Source: Bacteroidota bacterium (GTDB taxonomy: Bacteria; Bacteroidota; Bacteroidia; UKL13-3). From it: a DNA stretch of 39,858 nucleotides. Both the position numbers and the translations under genes were made by a program. The first letter of the stretch is position 1; each line of letters begins with the position of its first letter. The stretch spans positions 1 through 39,858 of the forward strand of contig JAWXAU010000146.1 of the NCBI GenBank assembly GCA_034439655.1. The letters are read 5' to 3'. A model generated the notes under the pieces. The model did not search any database and was not told the origin of the DNA. It saw nothing but the letters and a program-made list of their open reading frames with translations. This document shows, in pieces, positions 102-12,866 of this stretch.

Positions 102-779
102 CTAGACGACTTTGATAGTAGCAAACACCATTTCCTCTAAGAATGACGCTATCTTTTTATTATCCTTTGAGTTTCCAAAATCGGTAAGTGATGGCAGATT
201 TTTCATATAAAAACATTGAGAATGTGACATCTCAATGATGGTTGAAGCTAATGAACGGGGAAATTTATATTTAGGATTAAATTCCTTAATTATATCCGCA
301 ATCCGTCCGCAAAAATCTTTATAGGGCTTAAACAATTTTGCTTCGTTATACTCGGTTACGTTTCTTGTTAGATATGACTTTGCACCTTCTGACATAACTA
401 TATCATAAAGCAAAGTTTCATTTATGTAGGGTGTTGACACATCATCAACAACAGGGTATGAAAGGAGGGCAATTGCTTTTTTTAATTTTGTTTCAGGCTT
501 TAATACATTATTTGTATGAAAGAGCAATCTGTATTCCTGCCAACCCCAATACCAATCAACAATATAAATAAGCAAGAGGTGTTTGTTTTCAAAATAACGA
601 TAAATCCCTGCTTCTGTAGTTCCAATTTCAACGGCCAACTTTTTAAAGGTAAATGCTTCAAAACCTATTTGATGAATAAGAAGAATGCCTTTCTGAATAA
701 TTTTTTTGCCCAACTCTGTTTCTTCCGGATTTCGCAGAAACAGCTTTTCGTTCATCGTAATTCTCAGGTATAAATCCAT
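102..779 (-). CDS. TetR/AcrR family transcriptional regulator
   Basis: A 225-residue protein with an N-terminal TetR-type helix-turn-helix at about residues 27-70. The typical pattern is visible: a Gly-Phe-Glu-Ala stretch, then 'FTFKKLAVEIGTTEAGIYR' and 'YFENKHLLL'. The remaining 150 residues are the variable ligand-binding and dimerisation half, and the ligand cannot be read from sequence. It is divergent from the SulP transporter gene, with 102 bases between start codons, so it most likely represses itself and the transporter/carbonic anhydrase unit. An ATG eight codons downstream (755) is an alternative start. The first ATG is preferred because a TAnnTTTG box on the minus strand (805-798) gives a short leader. 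Family call is sure; target is inferred. Confidence 0.88.
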   Translation of the reverse strand: MDLYLRITMNEKLFLRNPEETELGKKIIQKGILLIHQIGFEAFTFKKLAVEIGTTEAGIYRYFENKHLLLIYIVDWYWGWQEYRLLFHTNNVLKPETKLKKAIALLSYPVVDDVSTPYINETLLYDIVMSEGAKSYLTRNVTEYNEAKLFKPYKDFCGRIADIIKEFNPKYKFPRSLASTIIEMSHSQCFYMKNLPSLTDFGNSKDNKKIASFLEEMVFATIKVV

Positions 780-797
780 ATCTCAAAAATGTTTCGG

Positions 798-859
798 CAA
801 AAGTAAACAAATTTTATTTGATAGTAATACTATTTTTTTAAATTCATTTACTATCTTTG
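798..859. promoter_or_regulatory. Divergent promoter region with inverted repeat between TetR gene and SulP gene
   Basis: Two Bacteroidetes-type -7 boxes face away from each other: TACTTTTG on the minus strand (805-798) and TATCTTTG on the plus strand (852-859). Neither has a TTTG at the usual upstream distance. Midway lies an inverted repeat, ATAGT-AAT-ACTAT (821-833). It covers the place where the -33 elements of both promoters would sit if spacing is about 19 bases. That is a sensible position for a TetR operator that blocks both directions. The half-sites are only 5 bp, so the operator call is inference. Confidence 0.5.
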
Positions 860-881
860 CCACGAAATCAATTTTACAACA

Positions 882-2426
882 ATGAAACATCTCTTTAAAG
901 AAATCAAAAACGATTTGCCAGCCAGCATAATCGTGTTTTTTGTAGCAGTGCCTTTATGCCTCGGTATTGCTTTGGCGTCGGGGGCACCGCTGTTTGCGGG
1001 CATTATTGCAGGTATTGTAGGCGGAATTGTGGTAGGTTCTGCAAGCGGTTCGCAGCTTGGTGTTAGTGGACCAGCGGCAGGTCTTGCGGTTATTGTGCTA
1101 AGCTCCATTGCCACATTGGGCGGTTCTTGGGAAGCCTTTTTACTTGCCATAGTTTTGGCTGGGGTTATTCAACTAATCGCAGGGTATTTAAAACTGGGAA
1201 CGATTGCCTACTACTTTCCTTCATCCGTTATTAAAGGAATGCTAACTGGTATTGGCTTACTCATAATCTTGAAACAAATTCCTCATGCATTTGGTTACGA
1301 CAACGACTTTGAAGGGGACGATGCCTTTCTTCAAGCTGATGGGCAAAACACTTTCTCGGAACTGCTAAATATTTTAAACTATCTAACCCCTGCTGTAATG
1401 CTCATTACAGGAGTGTCGCTATTTATTCTACTGCTTTGGGATAATGTTCTAACCAAAAAGCATAAAATTTTCGGAATGATTAACGGACCATTGGTAGCTG
1501 TAGTAGTTGGAATATTGTTGAATTATTTATACCAAACAGGCATGCTTCCATTGAGTTTAAATTCTAAACAAGTGGTGAATATTCCTGTGGCGAGCAGTAT
1601 CGGTGAATTTTTTGGACAATTTACACTACCCGATTTTTCAGCCTGGAAAAATCCACAAGTATATTTAATCGCTATTGTTATTGCTATTGTCGCGAGTTTG
1701 GAAACATTACTTTGTGCTGAAGCCACTGACAAACTTGACCCCGACAAAAATGTAACCCCAACTAACAGAGAACTTAAAGCCCAAGGCATCGGAAATATTC
1801 TTTCAGGATTTATTGGTGGGTTGCCGGTAACACAAGTAATTGTTCGCAGCAGTGCCAATATTACTTTTGGCGGTAAGACAAAGTTATCTGCCATTTTGCA
1901 TGGTTTCTTTTTACTAATAAGTGCCATTGCAATTCCGGGACTATTAAATATGATACCGCTTGCTACCCTTGCCTCGATACTATTTGTGGTGGGATACAAA
2001 TTGGCAAAACCTGTTCTGTTCAAACACATGTATAAATTAGGTTGGGGGCAATTTATTCCGTTTATTGTTACAGTGGCTGCTATACTTCTAACCGATTTGC
2101 TCAAAGGAATTGGAATTGGAATGGCAGTTGCAATTTTCTATATCCTTCGTAACAGCTTCCGCAATCCATTTCATCGCATCAAAGATGAAAATTTTGCAGA
2201 TAACGAACATGTATTTGTCTTGGCTGACGAAGTTTCGTTCCTCAATAAAGGAAGCATTCTTGAAATGCTTAACCATATTCCGGCAAATACAAAAGTTGTA
2301 ATTGACGGCTCAAATTCAACAAGCATTCATTATGATGTAATAGAAATAATTCAGAATTTTCAAATCCAGGCAAAAACAAAAAACATAACGCTTGATGTAA
2401 AAGGAATAAAATTACCAGGTAATTAA
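882..2426 (+). CDS. SulP family anion permease, probable bicarbonate transporter
   Basis: A 514-residue inner-membrane protein of the SulP/SLC26 family, a normal length for bacterial members. Hydrophobic segments fill residues 10-420. The N-terminal 'DLPASIIVFFVAVPLCLGI' region and the later 'ASLETLLCAEATDKLDP' and 'GLPVTQVIVRSSANI' stretches are SulP hallmarks. A short cytoplasmic STAS-like tail follows (about 435-514, with 'KVVIDGSNSTSIHYDVIEII'). SulP proteins move sulfate, bicarbonate, chloride or dicarboxylates. A beta-carbonic anhydrase gene starts 32 bases downstream, and such pairing usually marks bicarbonate transport (BicA-like); the substrate is inferred from that context alone. 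The ATG at 882 follows a -7 box at 852-859. Confidence 0.88.
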   Translation: MKHLFKEIKNDLPASIIVFFVAVPLCLGIALASGAPLFAGIIAGIVGGIVVGSASGSQLGVSGPAAGLAVIVLSSIATLGGSWEAFLLAIVLAGVIQLIAGYLKLGTIAYYFPSSVIKGMLTGIGLLIILKQIPHAFGYDNDFEGDDAFLQADGQNTFSELLNILNYLTPAVMLITGVSLFILLLWDNVLTKKHKIFGMINGPLVAVVVGILLNYLYQTGMLPLSLNSKQVVNIPVASSIGEFFGQFTLPDFSAWKNPQVYLIAIVIAIVASLETLLCAEATDKLDPDKNVTPTNRELKAQGIGNILSGFIGGLPVTQVIVRSSANITFGGKTKLSAILHGFFLLISAIAIPGLLNMIPLATLASILFVVGYKLAKPVLFKHMYKLGWGQFIPFIVTVAAILLTDLLKGIGIGMAVAIFYILRNSFRNPFHRIKDENFADNEHVFVLADEVSFLNKGSILEMLNHIPANTKVVIDGSNSTSIHYDVIEIIQNFQIQAKTKNITLDVKGIKLPGN

Positions 2427-2458
2427 ATCAATCATTCACAATTATAAATTCAAAAAAA

Positions 2459-3106
2459 ATGAAAACATTAACAAAAGAAATGCAGGAAGCTACTACTCCT
2501 GCAATGGCATTAGACTTATTAAAAGAAGGGAACAAAAGATTTCAAAACAATCTTAAAGTGAACCGCAACCTTTTACAACAGGCCAACGAAACATCAGACG
2601 GACAACACCCATTTGCAGTAATACTTAGTTGTATTGACAGCCGAACATCTGCCGAGTTAATTTTCGATCAGGGGCTTGGTGATGTTTTCAGTATTAGAAT
2701 AGCTGGAAATATTTTGAACGAAGATATTTTAGGCAGTATGGAATTTGGATGCAAGGTAGCAGGGTCAAAAATTATTGTGGTTTTAGGGCATACAAAATGC
2801 GGTGCGGTAAAAGGTGCTTGCGACCATGTGGAAATGGGTAACCTGACTGCCTTGTTGACCAAAATTAGACCAGCAGTAGAAGATGAAACCACAACTACAG
2901 AAAACAGAAATTCCAGCAACGGAGAGTTTGTAGAAAAAGTGGCGACAATCAATGTGAAACGAACTGTAAAATCTATTATGGAACGCAGCCCTATTTTAAA
3001 AGAAATGATTGAAAACGGAGAATTAGGAATTGTTGGTGGAACGCACGATATTACAACAGGGCAGGTTACTTTTTACGCTGAAACATTGGTTACTAATTCC
3101 AAATAG
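2459..3106 (+). CDS. can: Beta-class carbonic anhydrase
   Basis: A 215-residue cytoplasmic zinc enzyme interconverting CO2 and bicarbonate. The beta-class zinc ligands are all present: Cys58 with the Asp60-Arg62 dyad in 'CIDSR', and His111 and Cys114 in 'GHTKCGAVKGA'. The conserved 'RIAGN' segment follows the first motif, and length fits the family. It lies 32 bases after the SulP gene in the same direction and is presumably co-transcribed with it. Together they would import bicarbonate and equilibrate it with CO2 for carboxylation or pH balance. Function is very likely; the symbol follows the E. coli enzyme and is only a family label. Confidence 0.93.
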   Translation: MKTLTKEMQEATTPAMALDLLKEGNKRFQNNLKVNRNLLQQANETSDGQHPFAVILSCIDSRTSAELIFDQGLGDVFSIRIAGNILNEDILGSMEFGCKVAGSKIIVVLGHTKCGAVKGACDHVEMGNLTALLTKIRPAVEDETTTTENRNSSNGEFVEKVATINVKRTVKSIMERSPILKEMIENGELGIVGGTHDITTGQVTFYAETLVTNSK

Positions 3107-5607: not shown

Positions 5608-6237
5608 ATGAATATTACGGAACAATTCAAACACATTTTTGAACCTGAATTACTAAAAGAATTTGAGGAGAAAGCAACACATATTTCAGCTAAAGAAGGC
5701 GATATCATTCTTGATATCGGACAAACGGTTCGTGTTATACCAATAGTTATTTCAGGCACTTTAAAAATTTCAAGGATTGATGATGGCGGACATGAGCTGC
5801 TGCTTTATTACGTAAGCCCCAAAGAAAGTTGTGCCATGACTTTTACTTGTTGTATGCAGCAATTTCCGAGTGAAGTAAAAGCAGTTGCAGAAGATGATGT
5901 GGAGTTTCTTGCTATTCCAATTTCTACTATGGATGAATGGATGATGAAATACCCAACATGGAAAAGTTTTGTGATGAAAACAATCCGAGCCCGATTTAAC
6001 GAACTGCTTAAATCCATTGACCAACTTGCTTTTCAAAAATTAGATGAACGGCTAATTCATTACCTCAAAGAAAAATCGAAAGCAACAGGTTCTTCACTCA
6101 TCAATCTTTCGCACGAACAAATTGCTAACGAAATAGCAAGCTCACGCGAAGTAATTTCACGCCTCTTGAAAAAATTAGAGAATGATAAGAAATTGCTGCT
6201 GTATCGCAATCAAATTAAGTTGTTAAAAGAACTATGA
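5608..6237 (+). CDS. Crp/Fnr family regulator, probable activator of the sulfur genes
   Basis: A 209-residue protein with an N-terminal cyclic-nucleotide-type beta-barrel (about 25-115), a long dimer helix and a C-terminal winged helix. The DNA-reading helix 'SREVISRLLKKLEND' keeps the Arg-Glu-x-x-x-Arg pattern that contacts TGTGA half-sites in E. coli CRP. The phosphate-binding cassette does not match a cAMP binder: the Gly-Glu and Arg-Ser positions are replaced, and Cys75, Cys81 and Cys82 occur there in 'ESCAMTFTCCM'. That suggests a thiol-based or metal signal instead of cAMP (inference). CRP-like sites occur in front of the next gene and of the metallo-beta-lactamase gene, making this the likely regulator of the operon that follows. 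Confidence 0.9.
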   Translation: MNITEQFKHIFEPELLKEFEEKATHISAKEGDIILDIGQTVRVIPIVISGTLKISRIDDGGHELLLYYVSPKESCAMTFTCCMQQFPSEVKAVAEDDVEFLAIPISTMDEWMMKYPTWKSFVMKTIRARFNELLKSIDQLAFQKLDERLIHYLKEKSKATGSSLINLSHEQIANEIASSREVISRLLKKLENDKKLLLYRNQIKLLKEL

Positions 6238-6250
6238 TTGTTGTCAATGT

Positions 6251-6299
6251 GAATTGTGACTATAGTCACCGTTTATCATTTTTCATTGTCGGATCTTTG
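6251..6299 (+). promoter_or_regulatory. Crp-type operator plus -7 box before the DUF2892/TauE genes
   Basis: A perfect 14-bp palindrome GTGACTATAGTCAC (6256-6269), preceded by GAATT, reads as TGTGA-N6-TCACC and fits a CRP-family site. After it come 26 bases, then TTTG of the -7-like box GATCTTTG (6292-6299). That places the site at about -41, where class II CRP activators bind. No -33 TTTG is present, as expected for an activator-dependent promoter. Confidence 0.7.
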
Positions 6300-6334
6300 T
6301 GGTGTAATAATTCAATATTTAAAATTATCAGACA

Positions 6335-6541
6335 ATGAATAAAAACATGGGTTCAGCAGACAGAATAATCAGGATACTGGTGGCTGTGGTAATTGCAATT
6401 CTTTATTTCTCAAATCAAATCAGTGGCACAACAGCAATCATACTTGGAGTGCTTGCAATCGTTTTTGTAGCGACAAGCTTTATGAGTTTTTGCCCTTTGT
6501 ATTTTCCCTTAGGAATTTCGACAAGAAAAAAACAGTTATAA
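6335..6541 (+). CDS. DUF2892 (YgaP-like) small inner-membrane protein
   Basis: A 68-residue protein with two membrane helices (about 12-26 and 31-52). It has the 'MNKNMGSADRIIRILVAVV' start and 'SFCPLYFPLGISTRKK' end typical of DUF2892. In E. coli YgaP this module is fused to a rhodanese and forms a membrane-bound sulfurtransferase; here it is free-standing while rhodaneses are encoded downstream. The Cys in 'SFCPLY' is conserved in this family. It is the first gene after the Crp-type site, with only one base separating it from the TauE gene. Role as a membrane partner for sulfur transfer is inferred. Confidence 0.82.
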   Translation: MNKNMGSADRIIRILVAVVIAILYFSNQISGTTAIILGVLAIVFVATSFMSFCPLYFPLGISTRKKQL

Positions 6542-6542
6542 G

Positions 6543-6923
6543 ATGGAGTGGCAACAACCTATCACAGTTGCAATCATTGGCATTGTAGCCGGACTGCTTG
6601 GCGGTTTGCTTGGCTTAGGCGGAGCAATCATTATCATTCCTGCCTTGGTAATGCTACTTGGATATTCGCAACAGATGGCACAGGGCACAACACTTTTAAT
6701 GTTAGTGATGCCAGTTGGTGCATTGGCGGCTTGGCAATATTATAAAGTGGGAAATGTGGATGTAAAAACGGCACTCATTCTTGGTGTAGCATTTTTTGTG
6801 AGTAGTTTCATAGGTGCGAAATTTGCCAACCAAATTCCACAGGATATTTTGAAAAAAGTATTTGCCGTATTGCTGCTAGTGATTGCCGTGAAGATGTTGT
6901 TTTTTGAAAAAGTATTAAAATGA
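6543..6923 (+). CDS. Half-size TauE/SafE family (sulfite exporter-like) membrane protein
   Basis: A 126-residue protein with four predicted membrane helices and the glycine-rich N-terminal signature 'GLLGGLLGLGGAIIIIPAL' of the TauE/SafE family. Standard members have about 240-270 residues made of two such repeats. This one has a single repeat, so a working transporter would need a dimer. Family members next to persulfide-oxidising enzymes are thought to export sulfite or related sulfur oxyanions. It follows DUF2892 by one base and ends just before the second Crp-type site. Family call is strong; substrate inferred from context. Confidence 0.82.
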   Translation: MEWQQPITVAIIGIVAGLLGGLLGLGGAIIIIPALVMLLGYSQQMAQGTTLLMLVMPVGALAAWQYYKVGNVDVKTALILGVAFFVSSFIGAKFANQIPQDILKKVFAVLLLVIAVKMLFFEKVLK

Positions 6924-6970
6924 ATTGTAACAAATGTCACTGTATAGTATATTTTATCACCGCACCTTTG
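6922..6970 (+). promoter_or_regulatory. Second Crp-type operator plus -7 box, before the metallo-beta-lactamase/rhodanese gene
   Basis: GAATT followed by GTAAC-AAAT-GTCAC (6927-6940) repeats the arrangement at 6251-6269 with two changed bases in the left half-site region and a different centre. Again exactly 26 bases separate it from TTTG of the -7-like box CACCTTTG (6963-6970). Its start overlaps the TGA stop of the TauE gene. The matching geometry strongly suggests both promoters answer to the same regulator. Confidence 0.65.
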
Positions 6971-6990: not shown

Positions 6991-8346
6991 ATGGAAATCA
7001 AACAATTTGAAGACAAAAATTTAGCCCACTACTCCTACGCTATTTTGAGCAAAGGAGAAGTAGCATTGATTGACCCTGCCAGAAACCCGCAGCCGTATTA
7101 TGATTTTGTAAAACAACACCATGCAAAAATTACTGCTATAATTGAAACACACCCTCATGCCGATTTTGTAAGTAGCCATTTAGAAATTCACAACACAACA
7201 GGTGCAACAATTTATGTGAGCAAACTTTTGGGTGCTGAATATCCACACCAAACTTTTGATGAAAGTAATACAATTGTTTTAGGCAATATCGCCTTAAAAG
7301 CATTGGACACTCCTGGGCATTCACCCGACAGTATAAGCATTGTAGCAATTGATGAAAACGGGAAACAGCAAGTCGTCTTTACGGGCGACACTTTATTTCT
7401 TGGTGATTGTGGCAGACCCGATTTGAGAGAAAGTGCAGGTGCAATTACCGCTGCAAGAAGCGAACTTGCAAAGCAGATGTATTATTCGCTACGCAATAAG
7501 TTACTTACATTGCCCGATGAGGTGTTGGTGTATCCTGCACACGGTGCTGGAAGTTTATGTGGCAAAGGATTGAGTGAGCAAAACACAAGCACCATTGGTG
7601 CAGAAAAAATTGCAAATTGGAGTTTGCAAAATATGAGTGAAAATAATTTTGTAAAGGAATTATTATCAGACCAACCCTTTATTCCAAAATATTTTCCGTT
7701 TGATGTGGGAGTAAATAAAAAGGGTGCTGATAATTTCTCGGAGAGTATTTCTAAAGTTGAAAAAAGAGAACCTATAACTTGCCAAGGATGTGCAAATTCT
7801 TTGAACCCTGCCATTGCAATAATTGACAGCCGACCACAACAGCAATTCAAAAAAGCACATTTGAAAAATGCCATCAACCTGATGAACGACACCAAATTTG
7901 AAACTTGGTTGGGCAGCATAATTAATCCTGATGAACAATTTTATTTGATTGCGGAAAACGAATCTATATTAAACAAATTAATAGAACGCACTGCAAAAAT
8001 CGGTTATGAAAAACAAATTGCTCTGGCTTTTGTGAGTGACTTTGGGAATACAGAAATGCAGTTATTTGAAAGTTCCACATTGCAAAATAATGAAGACGCT
8101 TACACCATCATCGACATTCGCAATCATTCGGAAGCAAAATCAAACAAAATATTTGCAAACTCGATTCATATTCCTTTGCACGAATTGAGAGAACGGACAA
8201 ATGAAATTCCATTACACAAACCCATTTTGGTGCATTGTGCAGGTGGTTACAGAAGTGCTGCAGGTGCAAGCATTATCAAATCAAAAATAAACGGTTCATC
8301 ACAAGTTTTTGATTTAAGTGAAGAAGTAAAGACATTTCAAAAATGA
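6991..8346 (+). CDS. Metallo-beta-lactamase fold persulfide dioxygenase-like protein with two rhodanese domains
   Basis: A 451-residue cytoplasmic protein in three parts. Residues 1-210 are a metallo-beta-lactamase fold with His54, His56 and Asp58 in 'THPHADF', His110 in 'TPGHSPDS', Asp133 in 'TGDTLF' and a final 'HGAGS', matching the mononuclear iron set of ETHE1-type persulfide dioxygenases. Residues about 265-355 form a rhodanese-like domain without a catalytic Cys. Residues about 365-451 form an active-looking rhodanese with Cys416 in 'HCAGGYRSA'. This order is the one in CstB of Staphylococcus, which turns persulfides into thiosulfate. The usual His after the Asp of the HxHxD motif is Phe59 here. 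A CQGC pair (264, 267) lies at the linker. It has its own Crp-type promoter. Confidence 0.88.
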   Translation: MEIKQFEDKNLAHYSYAILSKGEVALIDPARNPQPYYDFVKQHHAKITAIIETHPHADFVSSHLEIHNTTGATIYVSKLLGAEYPHQTFDESNTIVLGNIALKALDTPGHSPDSISIVAIDENGKQQVVFTGDTLFLGDCGRPDLRESAGAITAARSELAKQMYYSLRNKLLTLPDEVLVYPAHGAGSLCGKGLSEQNTSTIGAEKIANWSLQNMSENNFVKELLSDQPFIPKYFPFDVGVNKKGADNFSESISKVEKREPITCQGCANSLNPAIAIIDSRPQQQFKKAHLKNAINLMNDTKFETWLGSIINPDEQFYLIAENESILNKLIERTAKIGYEKQIALAFVSDFGNTEMQLFESSTLQNNEDAYTIIDIRNHSEAKSNKIFANSIHIPLHELRERTNEIPLHKPILVHCAGGYRSAAGASIIKSKINGSSQVFDLSEEVKTFQK

Positions 8347-8543
8347 ATTTAATCCTAAAACATAAACTTACCATCATCGGAATTATTGTCGGTGCTATAG
8401 GTGGATTTGCTTACTATTATTTTGTAGGTTGTGCAAGCGGCACTTGTGCCATTACTTCAAAACCCTTAAACAGCACTTTGTATGGTGCTATGATGGGAGG
8501 TTTATTATTAACTAGCTTTAAAAAAGAAAAAACAAAAGAATAA
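8343..8543 (+). CDS. Small Cys-containing membrane protein (DUF6132-like)
   Basis: A 66-residue protein with two membrane helices. Between them lies the Cys motif 'YYFVGCASGTCAITSKP', followed by a glycine-rich second helix and a lysine-rich end. The pattern resembles the small Bacteroidetes family annotated as DUF6132. Its start overlaps the stop of the preceding gene (ATGA) and its stop overlaps the next start by one base, so it is firmly part of the operon. The motif G-C-A-x-G-x-C recurs in the other small membrane protein at 9893-10150. A role in moving or sensing sulfane sulfur at the membrane is possible but unproven. Confidence 0.75.
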   Translation: MNLILKHKLTIIGIIVGAIGGFAYYYFVGCASGTCAITSKPLNSTLYGAMMGGLLLTSFKKEKTKE

Positions 8544-8824
8544 TGAAAACAGAAGAAATCATCGTGGCCAATATCAAATGTGGTGGTTGTGCTACAACAA
8601 TTAAAAATGAATTATTAAAATTGAATGGCGTATCGGATGCCGAAGTATTCAATGAAAAAGATATGGTAAAGGTATCGTATGATAACACGGCAAAGCGACA
8701 AACTATAATAGACAAACTGCACTCACTTGGTTATCCGGAAGCAATTGAAAAGAACGGATTGCTTCTGCAATTAAAAAGCTATACCAGTTGTATGCTTGGC
8801 AAAATCAACAATCTAACTCATTAA
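8543..8824 (+). CDS. Heavy-metal-associated (HMA) domain protein
   Basis: A 93-residue protein whose first 68 residues form a ferredoxin-like HMA fold with the metal-binding loop 'IKCGGCATTI' (Cys-x-x-Cys) and the later 'LNGVSDAEVF' strand. CopZ-like copper chaperones have the same fold. An extra 25 residues contain a Cys in 'SYTSCMLGK'. The pair of cysteines could bind Cu(I) or carry persulfide. Being encoded between sulfur-transfer genes, overlapping its upstream neighbour by one base, suggests the second or a link between copper and sulfide stress; neither is proven. Confidence 0.82.
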   Translation: MKTEEIIVANIKCGGCATTIKNELLKLNGVSDAEVFNEKDMVKVSYDNTAKRQTIIDKLHSLGYPEAIEKNGLLLQLKSYTSCMLGKINNLTH

Positions 8825-8855: not shown

Positions 8856-9113
8856 ATGAACAATATCACAATTGTAGATGTAAGGACTACCGCAGAGTTT
8901 ATGGGAGGCAATGCTACAGGAAGTATCAATATTCCCTTGCAAGAAATTCAACAACGCATAGAAGAAATTAAATCATTACAACAACCAATCATTCTATGTT
9001 GTGCAAGTGGCAACCGCAGTGCACAAGCAGCTTCATTTCTTATGAGTTGCGGTGTGGAATGTAAAAACGGTGGAAGTTGGTTGGATGTGAATTATAATTA
9101 TCAAACAACATAA
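8856..9113 (+). CDS. Single-domain rhodanese sulfurtransferase
   Basis: An 85-residue free rhodanese domain. It opens with the 'IVDVRTTAEF' strand and has the active-site loop 'CCASGNRSA', where the second Cys is at the catalytic position and carries the persulfide. Length is at the lower end for the family (PspE/GlpE type, 85-110 residues), and there is no signal peptide, so it acts in the cytoplasm. It is 31 bases after the HMA gene and 13 bases before a second rhodanese gene of the same type, with which it shares the doubled Cys and the 'GSINIPLQ' strand, suggesting duplication. Confidence 0.9.
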   Translation: MNNITIVDVRTTAEFMGGNATGSINIPLQEIQQRIEEIKSLQQPIILCCASGNRSAQAASFLMSCGVECKNGGSWLDVNYNYQTT

Positions 9114-9126
9114 AAAAAATAAATAT

Positions 9127-9441
9127 ATGATACAACTTCTCAAAAATTTATTTGGCTTTGGTCCCAAAATGGATTACAAAGAACTGATGCAAAATGGAGC
9201 ACAGATAATTGATGTGCGAACCAAGGGCGAATTTCAAAGCGGACACATCAGCGGTTCAGTAAATATTCCATTGCAAAGCTTGCAGAATAATTTCTCGAAA
9301 CTTAAAAAAGACAAACCCGTTATCACCTGTTGTGCATCTGGCATGCGAAGTGCTTCGGCAAAAGGCATTTTAAAATCAAATGGATTTGCAGAAGTATATA
9401 ACGGTGGCGGATGGATGAGTTTACAAAACAAAATTAAATAA
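9127..9441 (+). CDS. Single-domain rhodanese sulfurtransferase, second copy
   Basis: A 104-residue rhodanese with the 'IIDVRTKGEFQSGHISGS' start and the active-site loop 'CCASGMRSASA'. The catalytic Cys is the second one. Compared with its upstream neighbour it keeps the His in 'SGHI' and has a short hydrophobic N-terminal extension ('MIQLLKNLFGFGPK') that might attach to a membrane protein. It presumably passes sulfane sulfur between low-molecular-weight persulfides, thioredoxin and the dioxygenase. The next gene, an OsmC protein, starts two bases later. Confidence 0.9.
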   Translation: MIQLLKNLFGFGPKMDYKELMQNGAQIIDVRTKGEFQSGHISGSVNIPLQSLQNNFSKLKKDKPVITCCASGMRSASAKGILKSNGFAEVYNGGGWMSLQNKIK

Positions 9442-9443
9442 TT

Positions 9444-9890
9444 ATGGAACCACACTATTATAATGTAGAGGTTAATTGGAATACAGAACGCAAAGGTGTT
9501 ATGTGTTCGCCTGAGTTGAACCGTGATGCTGGCAGTTGCATTGAAGTAGCAACACCACCTGAGTTTCCGAAAGGCATTCCCGGAATCTGGTCGCCTGAAC
9601 ATTTATTTACAGCCGCGGTAAGCAGTTGTTTGATGACAACATTTTTATCAATTGCTGAAAATTCAAAACTTAATTTCAAAAATTTCAGTTGCAAATCCAA
9701 GGGCAAATTAGAGCAAGTGGAGGGCAAATTTATGATGAGTGAAATTATTCTTGAACCCACCGTAACAATTACGGATGAAAAAGACCGTGAAAAAGCAGAA
9801 CGGGTTTTACAAAAGTCGGAAGCAGCTTGCTTAATTTCCAATTCAATAAAATCAAAAATCACAATGATTACAACAATTAAAAAAGTTTAA
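9444..9890 (+). CDS. OsmC family peroxiredoxin-like protein
   Basis: A 148-residue protein of the OsmC/Ohr superfamily. The two redox cysteines are visible: Cys62 in 'AVSSCLMTTFL' and Cys129 in 'KSEAACLISNS', with 'SPEHLFTAAVSS' before the first. OsmC-like proteins reduce organic hydroperoxides, and some members act on persulfides. An OsmC-type partner also occurs with rhodaneses in sulfide-responsive operons of other bacteria. It is spaced two bases from genes on both sides, so it is translated with the rest of the operon. Confidence 0.88.
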   Translation: MEPHYYNVEVNWNTERKGVMCSPELNRDAGSCIEVATPPEFPKGIPGIWSPEHLFTAAVSSCLMTTFLSIAENSKLNFKNFSCKSKGKLEQVEGKFMMSEIILEPTVTITDEKDREKAERVLQKSEAACLISNSIKSKITMITTIKKV

Positions 9891-9892
9891 AA

Positions 9893-10150
9893 ATGAAAGA
9901 AAGAATTTTAAAAGGGTGGACATTTACCAGAGTATTATATGTGGTTTTAGGGTCAGCGGTGATTATAAACTCTATAATAAACCATCAATGGTTCGGAGTT
10001 TTATTAGGCGGCTACTTTGCCTCAATGGGAATATTTGCTTTTGGCTGTGCTGCGGGAAATTGTTTTGGTGGAAACTGTAATGCTGAACCAAGGCAAACCA
10101 ACAAAACAGAAATGCAGGATGTAAACTTTGAAGAAGTAAAAAATAAATAG
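9893..10150 (+). CDS. Small Cys-rich membrane protein, YgaP/DUF2892-like
   Basis: An 85-residue protein with two membrane helices (about 12-28 and 31-49) followed by a cysteine-rich stretch, '[13 protein letters not shown]', and a polar tail. The helices resemble the DUF2892 hairpin ('[19 protein letters not shown]'). Three cysteines spaced C-x4-C-x4-C could bind metal or hold a persulfide relay at the inner face of the membrane. It shares G-C-A-x-G-x-C with the protein at 8343-8543. It is located one base before a thioredoxin gene, which may be its partner. Family assignment is tentative. Confidence 0.7.
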
Positions 10151-10151
10151 C

Positions 10152-10448
10152 ATGGCAACATTTTCAGAAATTATTAATTCAGACAAACCGGTGCTAGTTG
10201 ACTTCTTTGCCGAATGGTGCGGACCTTGCAAAATGATGAAGCCGATTTTGGAAGAATTAAAATCTAAAATTGGCGACAACGCCACTATACTAAAAGTAGA
10301 TGTCGACAAAAGTCCACAAGTATCAAATGCCTATAAAATTCAAGGAGTGCCCACACTTATGCTTTTCAAAAACGGAGTTGTAAAATGGCGGCAGTCGGGA
10401 GTAGTTCCTGCAAATCAATTAGAACAAATAATTAAACAACATCAATAA
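10152..10448 (+). CDS. trxA: Thioredoxin
   Basis: A 98-residue thioredoxin with the active site '[16 protein letters not shown]' (Cys-Gly-Pro-Cys) and the cis-proline region '[11 protein letters not shown]'. It has no signal peptide and is slightly shorter than E. coli TrxA (109). In this operon it probably reduces persulfides on rhodaneses or the OsmC protein, releasing sulfide, rather than being the main cell thioredoxin. Starts one base after the previous stop and ends four bases before the next start. The symbol marks the family only. Confidence 0.93.
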
Positions 10449-10452
10449 CATT

Positions 10453-11166
10453 ATGAGAAAATATATAGTCATTTTACTTGCAGCAACAACTTTTGTTTTC
10501 AGCAGTTGCACAAACGGACAAACGCCAGCTTCAAACACCAATCTTTCTGCAACAGAATTTGCCGAAAAAATAAAAGAACTGCCTTCAGCACCCATTGTAG
10601 ATGTGCGGACACCTGATGAATTTTCAAATGGACATTTACAAAACGCAAAAAATATTGACTGGAATGGAATTGATTTTCAAAAAGAAATTTCAACGCTTGA
10701 TAAATCAAAACCTGTTTTTGTTTATTGTTTAAGTGGCGGCAGAAGTTCATCAGCAGCAAACCAAATGCGTTCAGATGGTTTTAAAGAAGTTTATGAATTA
10801 AGCGGAGGTATTATGAAATGGAGAGCAGCCAACCTTCCCGAAACCACCATCAACAAAACAGTATTAGAAGGTATGAGCAAACTACAATTTGATACGCTCT
10901 TAAATTCTGACAAATTAGTGCTTATAGATTTTTATGCTGATTGGTGTGCCCCATGCAAAAAAATGAAACCCTACTTGGATGAAATTTCAAAAGAAATGGC
11001 AGACAAAGTTATAGTAATTCGAATCAATACAGACGATAACCAACAACTTTGCAAGGAACTAAAAATAGATGCTTTGCCTGTTTTGCAACTCTACAAAAAC
11101 AAAATAATGACTTGGACAAATACAGGTTACCTAAGTAAGGAAGATGTGTTGAAGCAAATACAATAA
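10453..11166 (+). CDS. Rhodanese-thioredoxin fusion lipoprotein
   Basis: A 237-residue exported protein. The N-terminus is a lipoprotein signal with Cys19 in 'FVFSSCTNGQ'. Residues about 32-130 are a rhodanese domain ('PIVDVRTPDEFSNGH', active-site loop 'VYCLSGGRSSSA'). Residues about 145-237 are a thioredoxin domain with 'DWCAPCKKMKP' (Cys-Ala-Pro-Cys) and cis-Pro in 'DALPVLQLYKN'. It would face the periplasm, joining a sulfur carrier to a reductant on one anchored chain. It ends the operon; 347 bases follow before the next gene. Both domains look intact. Confidence 0.9.
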   Translation: MRKYIVILLAATTFVFSSCTNGQTPASNTNLSATEFAEKIKELPSAPIVDVRTPDEFSNGHLQNAKNIDWNGIDFQKEISTLDKSKPVFVYCLSGGRSSSAANQMRSDGFKEVYELSGGIMKWRAANLPETTINKTVLEGMSKLQFDTLLNSDKLVLIDFYADWCAPCKKMKPYLDEISKEMADKVIVIRINTDDNQQLCKELKIDALPVLQLYKNKIMTWTNTGYLSKEDVLKQIQ

Positions 11167-11513: not shown

Positions 11514-12866
11514 ATGGTGAAAAAAGGAATAAACTTTACTGGTTTTTTTATTGCACTAGTAGTTTTTAGTGTCATATTATATTTGCCCATTTTTAATAAT
11601 CAACAAGCCCAACAAGCCCTTGCATTGCTGACAATGGTGGCAATATTATGGATAACAGAAGCGATTCCTCTACCGTTGACAGGCTTATTAATTCCCGTAG
11701 TGGCCATTTTTATGCAATTATTATCTCCAAAGGAAGCGTTCAAGGAGTTTGCACATCCGATCCTTTTCTTATTCATGGGTGGTTTCGTACTTGCTGGTGC
11801 ACTTTCGCGTCATTCATTGGACAAAATGCTTGCTCAAAAACTTATCAGGCTGGCCCGTGGAAACTTTTACCGATCTGCAATACTTCTGATGTTTGCAACC
11901 TCTTTAACAGCCTGTTGGACAAGCAATACATCTGCAACTGCAATGATGATCCCTTTAGGATTAGGTATGCTCGTCCTTGTAAAAAAGAATACTGTTTCTG
12001 CAGAATCCAAATTCCTAATGCTTGGGATTGCATATTCTGCAAATATTGGTGGAATTATAACCATGGTATCATCACCACCTAATGCCATTGGGGCTGCGAT
12101 ATTGAACATTTCATTTTCGGAATGGCTGAAATATAGTATCCCTATTTTTCTAATCACCTTTCCAGTTATGGTTACTATATTGACACTATATTTTAAGCCT
12201 GATAAAAAAATGAGCATTGGTGTTATGGTTTTTGAAAAAGAAGCTGCTGCTCCTATTAAAACACTCACGTTTATATTTCTATTTACAATATCATTATGGA
12301 TGATGCAAGGGGTTCTTTCTCCCCTTCTGCATATCGATAATAGCTTTAATTCATTGGTGGCTATCTTAGCAATTTTTCTGCTATTTATCACAAAGGTTTT
12401 GACCTGGGAAGAAATCATAAAAAGCATTAACTGGGAGATATTATTGCTATTCGGTGGAGGACTCACCTTGGGAATGCTAATCAATCAAAGCGGACTAGGA
12501 GCTATACTGATTGCAAAAGTCTCAAGCTTAATAACGATTGTCCCAATATTCATGTTTTTGTTAGCTATCGTGGTTTTTAGTATAATCCTCACAGAATTTA
12601 TGAGTAACACCGCAAGTGCAGCTATGATTTTACCTCTTCTTTTTTCCCTGTCCAATCAAATACAAATTAACCCCGTGATTTTAGTACTACCATCTACAAT
12701 TGCAGCGTCCTATGGATTTATGATGCCTGCAGGAACACCGCCGAATGCGATGGTTTTCTCAGCAGGTTTTGTACCACAAAGCGATATGATAAAGGCAGGC
12801 TTGATGATAAACGTCATATTTTCAATTATTCTAACCACCTTTTTTTATTTAATTTTTTCTTTGTGA
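11514..12866 (+). CDS. SLC13/DASS family sodium:anion symporter
   Basis: A 450-residue inner-membrane protein with 10-12 hydrophobic helices. It holds the two substrate/sodium motifs of the divalent anion:sodium symporter family: 'CWTSNTSATAMMIPLG' and 'EFMSNTASAAMILPLL', each with Ser-Asn-Thr. It also carries the paired Pro-Pro-Asn-Ala loops in 'VSSPPNAIG' and 'GTPPNAMVFS'. Members carry dicarboxylates, citrate or sulfate with sodium. Position after a sulfur operon might favour sulfate, but it has its own promoter and the motif alone does not decide. Length is normal. Confidence 0.88.
   Translation: MVKKGINFTGFFIALVVFSVILYLPIFNNQQAQQALALLTMVAILWITEAIPLPLTGLLIPVVAIFMQLLSPKEAFKEFAHPILFLFMGGFVLAGALSRHSLDKMLAQKLIRLARGNFYRSAILLMFATSLTACWTSNTSATAMMIPLGLGMLVLVKKNTVSAESKFLMLGIAYSANIGGIITMVSSPPNAIGAAILNISFSEWLKYSIPIFLITFPVMVTILTLYFKPDKKMSIGVMVFEKEAAAPIKTLTFIFLFTISLWMMQGVLSPLLHIDNSFNSLVAILAIFLLFITKVLTWEEIIKSINWEILLLFGGGLTLGMLINQSGLGAILIAKVSSLITIVPIFMFLLAIVVFSIILTEFMSNTASAAMILPLLFSLSNQIQINPVILVLPSTIAASYGFMMPAGTPPNAMVFSAGFVPQSDMIKAGLMINVIFSIILTTFFYLIFSL

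Follow-up and report, generated by a model that had tools for sequence, protein, structure and literature searches.

A Crp/Fnr-family regulator of a Bacteroidota bacterium is found directly upstream of two operators, each centred at −41.5 of a predicted promoter, and class II control of both promoters by this neighbouring Crp-type protein is highly probable from sequence comparison. The window, that is the whole stretch of 39,858 nucleotides analysed here, carries the operators in front of two groups of predicted sulfur-handling genes. Our preliminary description had proposed that the neighbouring protein activates two transcripts from class II positions. It had passed over the probable function in reactive-sulfur handling, the lost cAMP ligands, the invariant cysteine and the earlier publication of GTAACnnnnGTTAC for HcpR2. 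Class II activation is still the best-supported reading, for which the operator centre, the recurring gene layout, the tracking of site with regulator and the triad Arg180, Glu181 and Arg185 all argue. Bacteroidota carry many sulfur-handling genes, and no regulator is named for them in the open literature that we searched. The present result supplies a protein with its operator, the exact geometry of the promoters and a list of targets, all of them directly testable. It further suggests how class II activation can be read at the unusual −7/−33 promoters of Bacteroidota. If the proposal is true, it would also place a persulfide sensor on the CRP fold; the sensors in the papers that we found belong to other families.

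Operators and downstream genes

The operators and promoter boxes of the window are as follows.

6251–6269, plus strand: operator 1, GAATT followed by GTGAC-TATA-GTCAC, a conserved motif; palindrome 6256–6269, centre 6262.5 (−41.5)
6292–6299, plus strand: −7 box 1, GATCTTTG, with TTTG at 6296–6299; consensus TAnnTTTG, predicted start 6304
6922–6940, plus strand: operator 2, GAATT followed by GTAAC-AAAT-GTCAC, beginning at the tauE stop; palindrome 6927–6940, centre 6933.5 (−41.5)
6963–6970, plus strand: −7 box 2, CACCTTTG, with TTTG at 6967–6970; predicted start 6975

Re-reading of the sequence returned both sites at the coordinates first given, and the distance of 26 bases from palindrome to TTTG is exact at both promoters. 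No other perfect palindrome of this type occurs within the window. Both boxes had been described as −7-like; their TTTG and the A at −11 do match TAnnTTTG, but the T at −12 is absent from GATCTTTG and CACCTTTG. The genes behind the two promoters are listed below.

6335–6541, plus strand: YgaP-like membrane protein, 68 aa (PF11127, E 3e-23), first gene of transcript 1
6543–6923, plus strand: half-length TauE/SafE sulfite-exporter-type protein, 126 aa (PF01925, E 4e-24, positions 2–111 of 237)
6991–8346, plus strand: MBL-fold/rhodanese fusion, 451 aa (PF00753 and PF00581), predicted CstB-like persulfide dioxygenase-sulfurtransferase
8343–8540, plus strand: DUF6132 small membrane protein (PF19628)
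8543–8824, plus strand: HMA (heavy-metal-associated) domain protein (PF00403)
8856–9113, plus strand: single-domain rhodanese (PF00581)
9127–9441, plus strand: single-domain rhodanese (PF00581)
9444–9890, plus strand: OsmC-family protein (PF02566)
9893–10150, plus strand: small protein, 85 aa, with no Pfam match, recurring in sulfur clusters of relatives
10152–10448, plus strand: thioredoxin (PF00085)
10453–11166, plus strand: rhodanese-thioredoxin fusion (PF00581 and PF00085), last gene of probable transcript 2

The product of 6991–8346 joins an MBL domain to rhodanese domains and is close to the solved structures 3tp9 (E 4e-65) and 3r2u (E 2e-59), the latter of which we take to be S. aureus CstB; a CstB-type activity is predicted on this ground. 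BpPRF and the ETHE1 persulfide dioxygenase (4chl, E 1e-16) are more distant from it than these two. The half-size form of TauE may be a conserved one, as a 72% identical match beside a YgaP-type gene in a relative suggests.

The same sulfur genes are found beside the regulator in many of 60 fetched loci. Among 52 sites near the regulator, the first gene is a rhodanese in 13, an MBL protein in 12, TauE in eight, SulP in seven, a YeeE-type gene in four and a YgaP-type gene in three; a single NrfD and others make up the remainder. For 39 sites mostly far from the regulator the first genes include rhodanese (13), MBL (7), TauE (4), SulP (2), an outer-membrane efflux protein (8), bd oxidase (1) and hcp (1). 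The putative regulon would centre on the handling of reactive sulfur, extended by respiratory and efflux genes. The TolC-type outer-membrane efflux genes behind eight of the 39 mostly distal sites are an unexpected part of it.

Two further groups of transport genes are seen in the window. A SulP-family transporter directly followed by a beta-carbonic anhydrase lies at 882–3106, and the two may act together in taking up bicarbonate or sulfate; upstream, on the opposite strand, stands a TetR-type regulator. A citrate/sodium:sulfate symporter-type transporter (11514–12866) stands just past the rhodanese-thioredoxin gene and may belong to the sulfur cluster.

The regulator and its possible signal

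5608–6237, plus strand: Crp/Fnr-family regulator, 209 aa (Pfam cNMP_binding and HTH_Crp_2)

Both Pfam domains score above cut-off, and alignments together with an AlphaFold model (pLDDT 89) give a Crp fold that matches Crp structures. The recognition helix reads SSREVISR and contains Arg180, Glu181 and Arg185. Retention of the CRP contact residues Arg-Glu-x-x-x-Arg, noted at the outset, is borne out, with Arg180 and Arg185 invariant among homologues and Glu181 present in the window protein. This triad, together with the TGTGA-like half sites, fits DNA reading of the CRP type. FNR identity was rejected: FNR has Val-Glu-x-x-Ser-Arg, TTGAT half sites and N-terminal Fe-S cysteines, whereas the window protein has Arg at 180, no N-terminal cysteines and a GTRAC site.

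Identity with a cAMP-dependent CRP is likewise not supported. Alignment to E. coli CRP places Ala76, Met77, Pro87 and Ser88 at the cAMP contacts Gly71, Glu72, Arg82 and Ser83, so that Glu72 is replaced by Met and Arg82 by Pro, and the NCBIfam CRP score is 38 against a cut-off of 266. With these contacts replaced, ordinary cAMP control is unlikely, and the regulator probably does not use cAMP. The effector-pocket region contains three cysteines instead, Cys75, Cys81 and Cys82. In the AlphaFold model Cys75 precedes a short effector-pocket helix while Cys81 and Cys82 lie within it. In a set of 61 homologues that was collected on overall similarity, Cys75 is conserved in 61, Cys81 in 53 and Cys82 in 37. 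These counts rest on that set since a second collection of 80 named loci is biased, its search pattern having contained those cysteines. By conservation, then, the protein has the cysteines expected of a thiol-based persulfide sensor. From the conserved pocket cysteines and the sulfur target genes we infer that persulfide or polysulfide is the likeliest signal. We give roughly even chances to the full proposal, in which a Crp/Fnr subfamily spread throughout Bacteroidota would sense persulfide directly by an invariant cysteine, placed in what was once the cAMP pocket, and would activate the detoxification of sulfane sulfur from class II sites.

The same operators and the same class II activation may serve another signal, such as redox state, heme, NO or oxygen, the sulfur genes then answering to redox conditions in general, as has been suggested for PgRsp and HcpR, and this we hold to be a serious though clearly less probable option. 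PgRsp binds heme, is redox-linked and was modelled on 3DV8 (PMC6955866), which is also the nearest solved structure to the window regulator; the motif is also that of HcpR2 at hcp (PMC1274295), and the two single sites before cytochrome bd oxidase and hcp genes point the same way. However, the majority of the targets deal with sulfane sulfur, sulfite or sulfate, and His85 of PgRsp corresponds, by spacing, to Gln84 in the window regulator.

Promoter geometry

The position of the operators was studied with 156 pooled sites picked only by GTnAC-N4-GTnAC-N26-TTTG. Although not selected for, T at −12 is found in 85% and A at −11 in 95% of these sites, and A at +1 in 59%. A −33 element, said in the preliminary description to be missing, is indeed absent at both window promoters and none is seen in the alignment of the 156 sites. 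Mapping of transcription starts in F. psychrophilum places TAnnTTTG at −12 to −5 (PMC9723704). On this scale the operator runs from −48 to −35, with its centre at −41.5. Taken with the fixed spacing of 26 bases and the pooled alignment, this gives a class II layout with predicted starts at both promoters. The position −41.5 is that of a class II activator in CRP.

Repression from these sites, released by persulfide as for BigR or SqrR, is improbable. Among the persulfide sensors known from other families repressors prevail, but an operator at −41.5 with fixed −7 spacing and no −33 element is an activation layout, and repressor operators need no fixed spacing.

Linking the sites to the neighbouring regulator

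Occurrence of the composite site was compared with that of the regulator in 296 genomes sampled across the phylum, of which 112 have a homologue at E 1e-20 or better. The strict site is present in 45 of these 112 and in three of the 184 others (p 8e-19). Within one class the numbers are 45 of 62 and two of 11 (p 0.001), a fairer comparison because the −7 box belongs to one class. It counts against the link that fewer than half of the genomes with a homologue (45 of 112) have the strict site. In near relatives the first site is usually directly 3′ of the regulator gene, and the order regulator, site, TauE, site, MBL-rhodanese recurs at three loci in Flavobacteriia.

Residue 181 gives a further hint. 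Glu181 of CRP reads the base pair at the corresponding operator position. Next to regulators with Glu181, base 3 of the site is G in 54% of the half sites; next to those with Val181 it tends to be A (6% G). Placed on the tree, the covariation amounts to two to four changes of independent origin, each going the way expected; this number is not significant after tree correction and we therefore treat the covariation as supporting evidence.

Reading of the sites by some other Crp/Fnr protein, HcpR-like or a global Crp, with the neighbour there by chance, would account for the same composite site in three genomes lacking a close homologue, one of which has it before hcp (locus L184 of genome G238, positions 300–3000, a prismane gene with the same operator and −7 spacing). 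No local Crp gene was found beside the sites in these three genomes. We think such a reader quite improbable. Four proteins of the genome contain a Crp HTH, and, with residues matched by eye, Arg180 is confined to the neighbour, the other three carrying Val or Thr at this position; moreover, site presence follows regulator presence, and the first site stands, as a rule, right behind the regulator gene in near relatives.

Conservation across Bacteroidota

That the sites are more than chance is shown decisively by the conservation of motif plus spacing in relatives. From the 60 loci with a regulator homologue, 149 kb of non-coding DNA was scanned for all 5-base dyads with spacers of 0–12. GTAAC-N4-GTTAC ranks first in this unbiased enumeration, with 22 occurrences where about 0 are expected. 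TTTG stands at exactly +26 behind 32 sites, next best offset four, although TTTG was not selected for, and TAnnTTTG starts at +22 in 24 sites. In the 80 further named loci, which come from another collection and may have some species in common with the 60, TTTG at +26 is found in 55 sites (next offset four), TAnnTTTG starting at +22 in 43, and the operator pattern has 168 strand matches against 0–2 for reversed or re-spaced controls. Across the 296 genomes the strict pattern yields 90 sites in 48 genomes, whereas its reversed control yields one. The leader between TTTG and the start codon is in most cases 13–40 bases long. By these comparisons the promoter design of operator plus fixed spacing is found across Bacteroidota and is not local to the window. 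The motif scan that we had proposed for relatives thus recovers both palindrome and spacing, with clean controls, while the scan of the same genome for the palindrome alone showed no enrichment.

In the 3.5 Mb genome the palindrome with TTTG at +26 has two perfect matches, both in the window. GTRAC-N4-GTCAC without TTTG gives six strand matches at four loci against 15 for the reversed control, and the palindrome alone was rejected as a genome-wide regulon marker. Composite sites with one mismatch are also below the control count across the 3.5 Mb. For this genome we therefore claim no regulon beyond the two window promoters. Chance as the origin of palindromes and equal spacing, which the lack of over-representation of the palindrome alone in this genome might suggest, has a negligible probability and is refuted by the motif and spacing conserved in scores of genomes with clean controls.

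Proposed mechanism

The product of 5608–6237 would bind as a Crp/Fnr-family dimer to GTRAC-N4-GTYAC (CRP-like TGTRA-N6-TYACA) at −41.5 of both promoters. The bound dimer may recruit RNA polymerase by class II contacts to these promoters, which have a −7 box and are without a −33 element. Promoter 1 would drive ygaP-tauE (6335–6923) and promoter 2 the cluster from the MBL-rhodanese gene to the rhodanese-thioredoxin gene (6991 to about 11166). By prediction, the encoded proteins oxidise sulfane sulfur (persulfide, polysulfide, sulfite), pass it on and export it. Most likely, the pocket cysteines sense persulfide or polysulfide and the detoxification genes are switched on. In this scheme the binding to DNA, an activating and not a repressing effect, the signal and a single transcript up to 11166 are predictions.

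Comparison with known systems

The window regulator resembles E. coli CRP in its fold, the Arg180/Glu181/Arg185 triad, an operator of the TGTGA-N6-TCACA type and the centre at −41.5. It differs in the Met and Pro that take the place of Glu72 and Arg82, in the pocket cysteines and in a −7 box TAnnTTTG in place of a −10 element. The CRP regulon serves carbon catabolism, whereas the one here would be local and concerned with sulfur.

The operator itself is known. GTAACnnnnGTTAC was published in 2005 as the consensus of the HcpR2 operator at hcp genes (Rodionov 2005, PMC1274295). HcpR2 is also of the Crp/Fnr family, and the window operators agree with GTAACnnnnGTTAC. The same operator thus serves hcp genes elsewhere, and the motif is not specific to the window regulator. 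The HcpR2 regulon is reported to comprise hcp and related genes of nitrosative stress (PMC1274295), but no hcp gene for the regulator to adjoin and control is found in the window cluster, which has sulfur genes instead.

PgRsp of Porphyromonas gingivalis is likely a characterised relative of the window regulator, as judged from the Cys76-x-Met78 spacing, which equals that of Cys75 and Met77 here, and from the shared template 3DV8 (Eubacterium rectale), the nearest solved relative of both. It is likewise a Crp-family protein of Bacteroidota. PgRsp does not need Cys76 for heme binding, and its reported targets are the hmu operon and bcp (PMC6955866). Heme binding and these targets are features in which it probably differs from the window regulator, and no sulfur regulon is described for it.

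In A. baumannii, Crp becomes persulfidated when the cells are treated with sulfide (PMC7315123). A Crp-type sulfur regulator or persulfide sensing by Crp in Bacteroidota was not found in the open-access literature searched. Similar genes for persulfide dioxygenase, rhodanese and TauE-type proteins are controlled, also through cysteines, by SqrR/BigR (ArsR family), CstR (CsoR family) and FisR. These belong to other protein families than the window regulator and are mostly repressors, FisR being sigma54-dependent. The type of switch is classic and its operator known, while the sulfur circuit seems undescribed in the open literature searched. What is new here is the putative sulfur regulon together with a cysteine-bearing, probably cAMP-independent activator.
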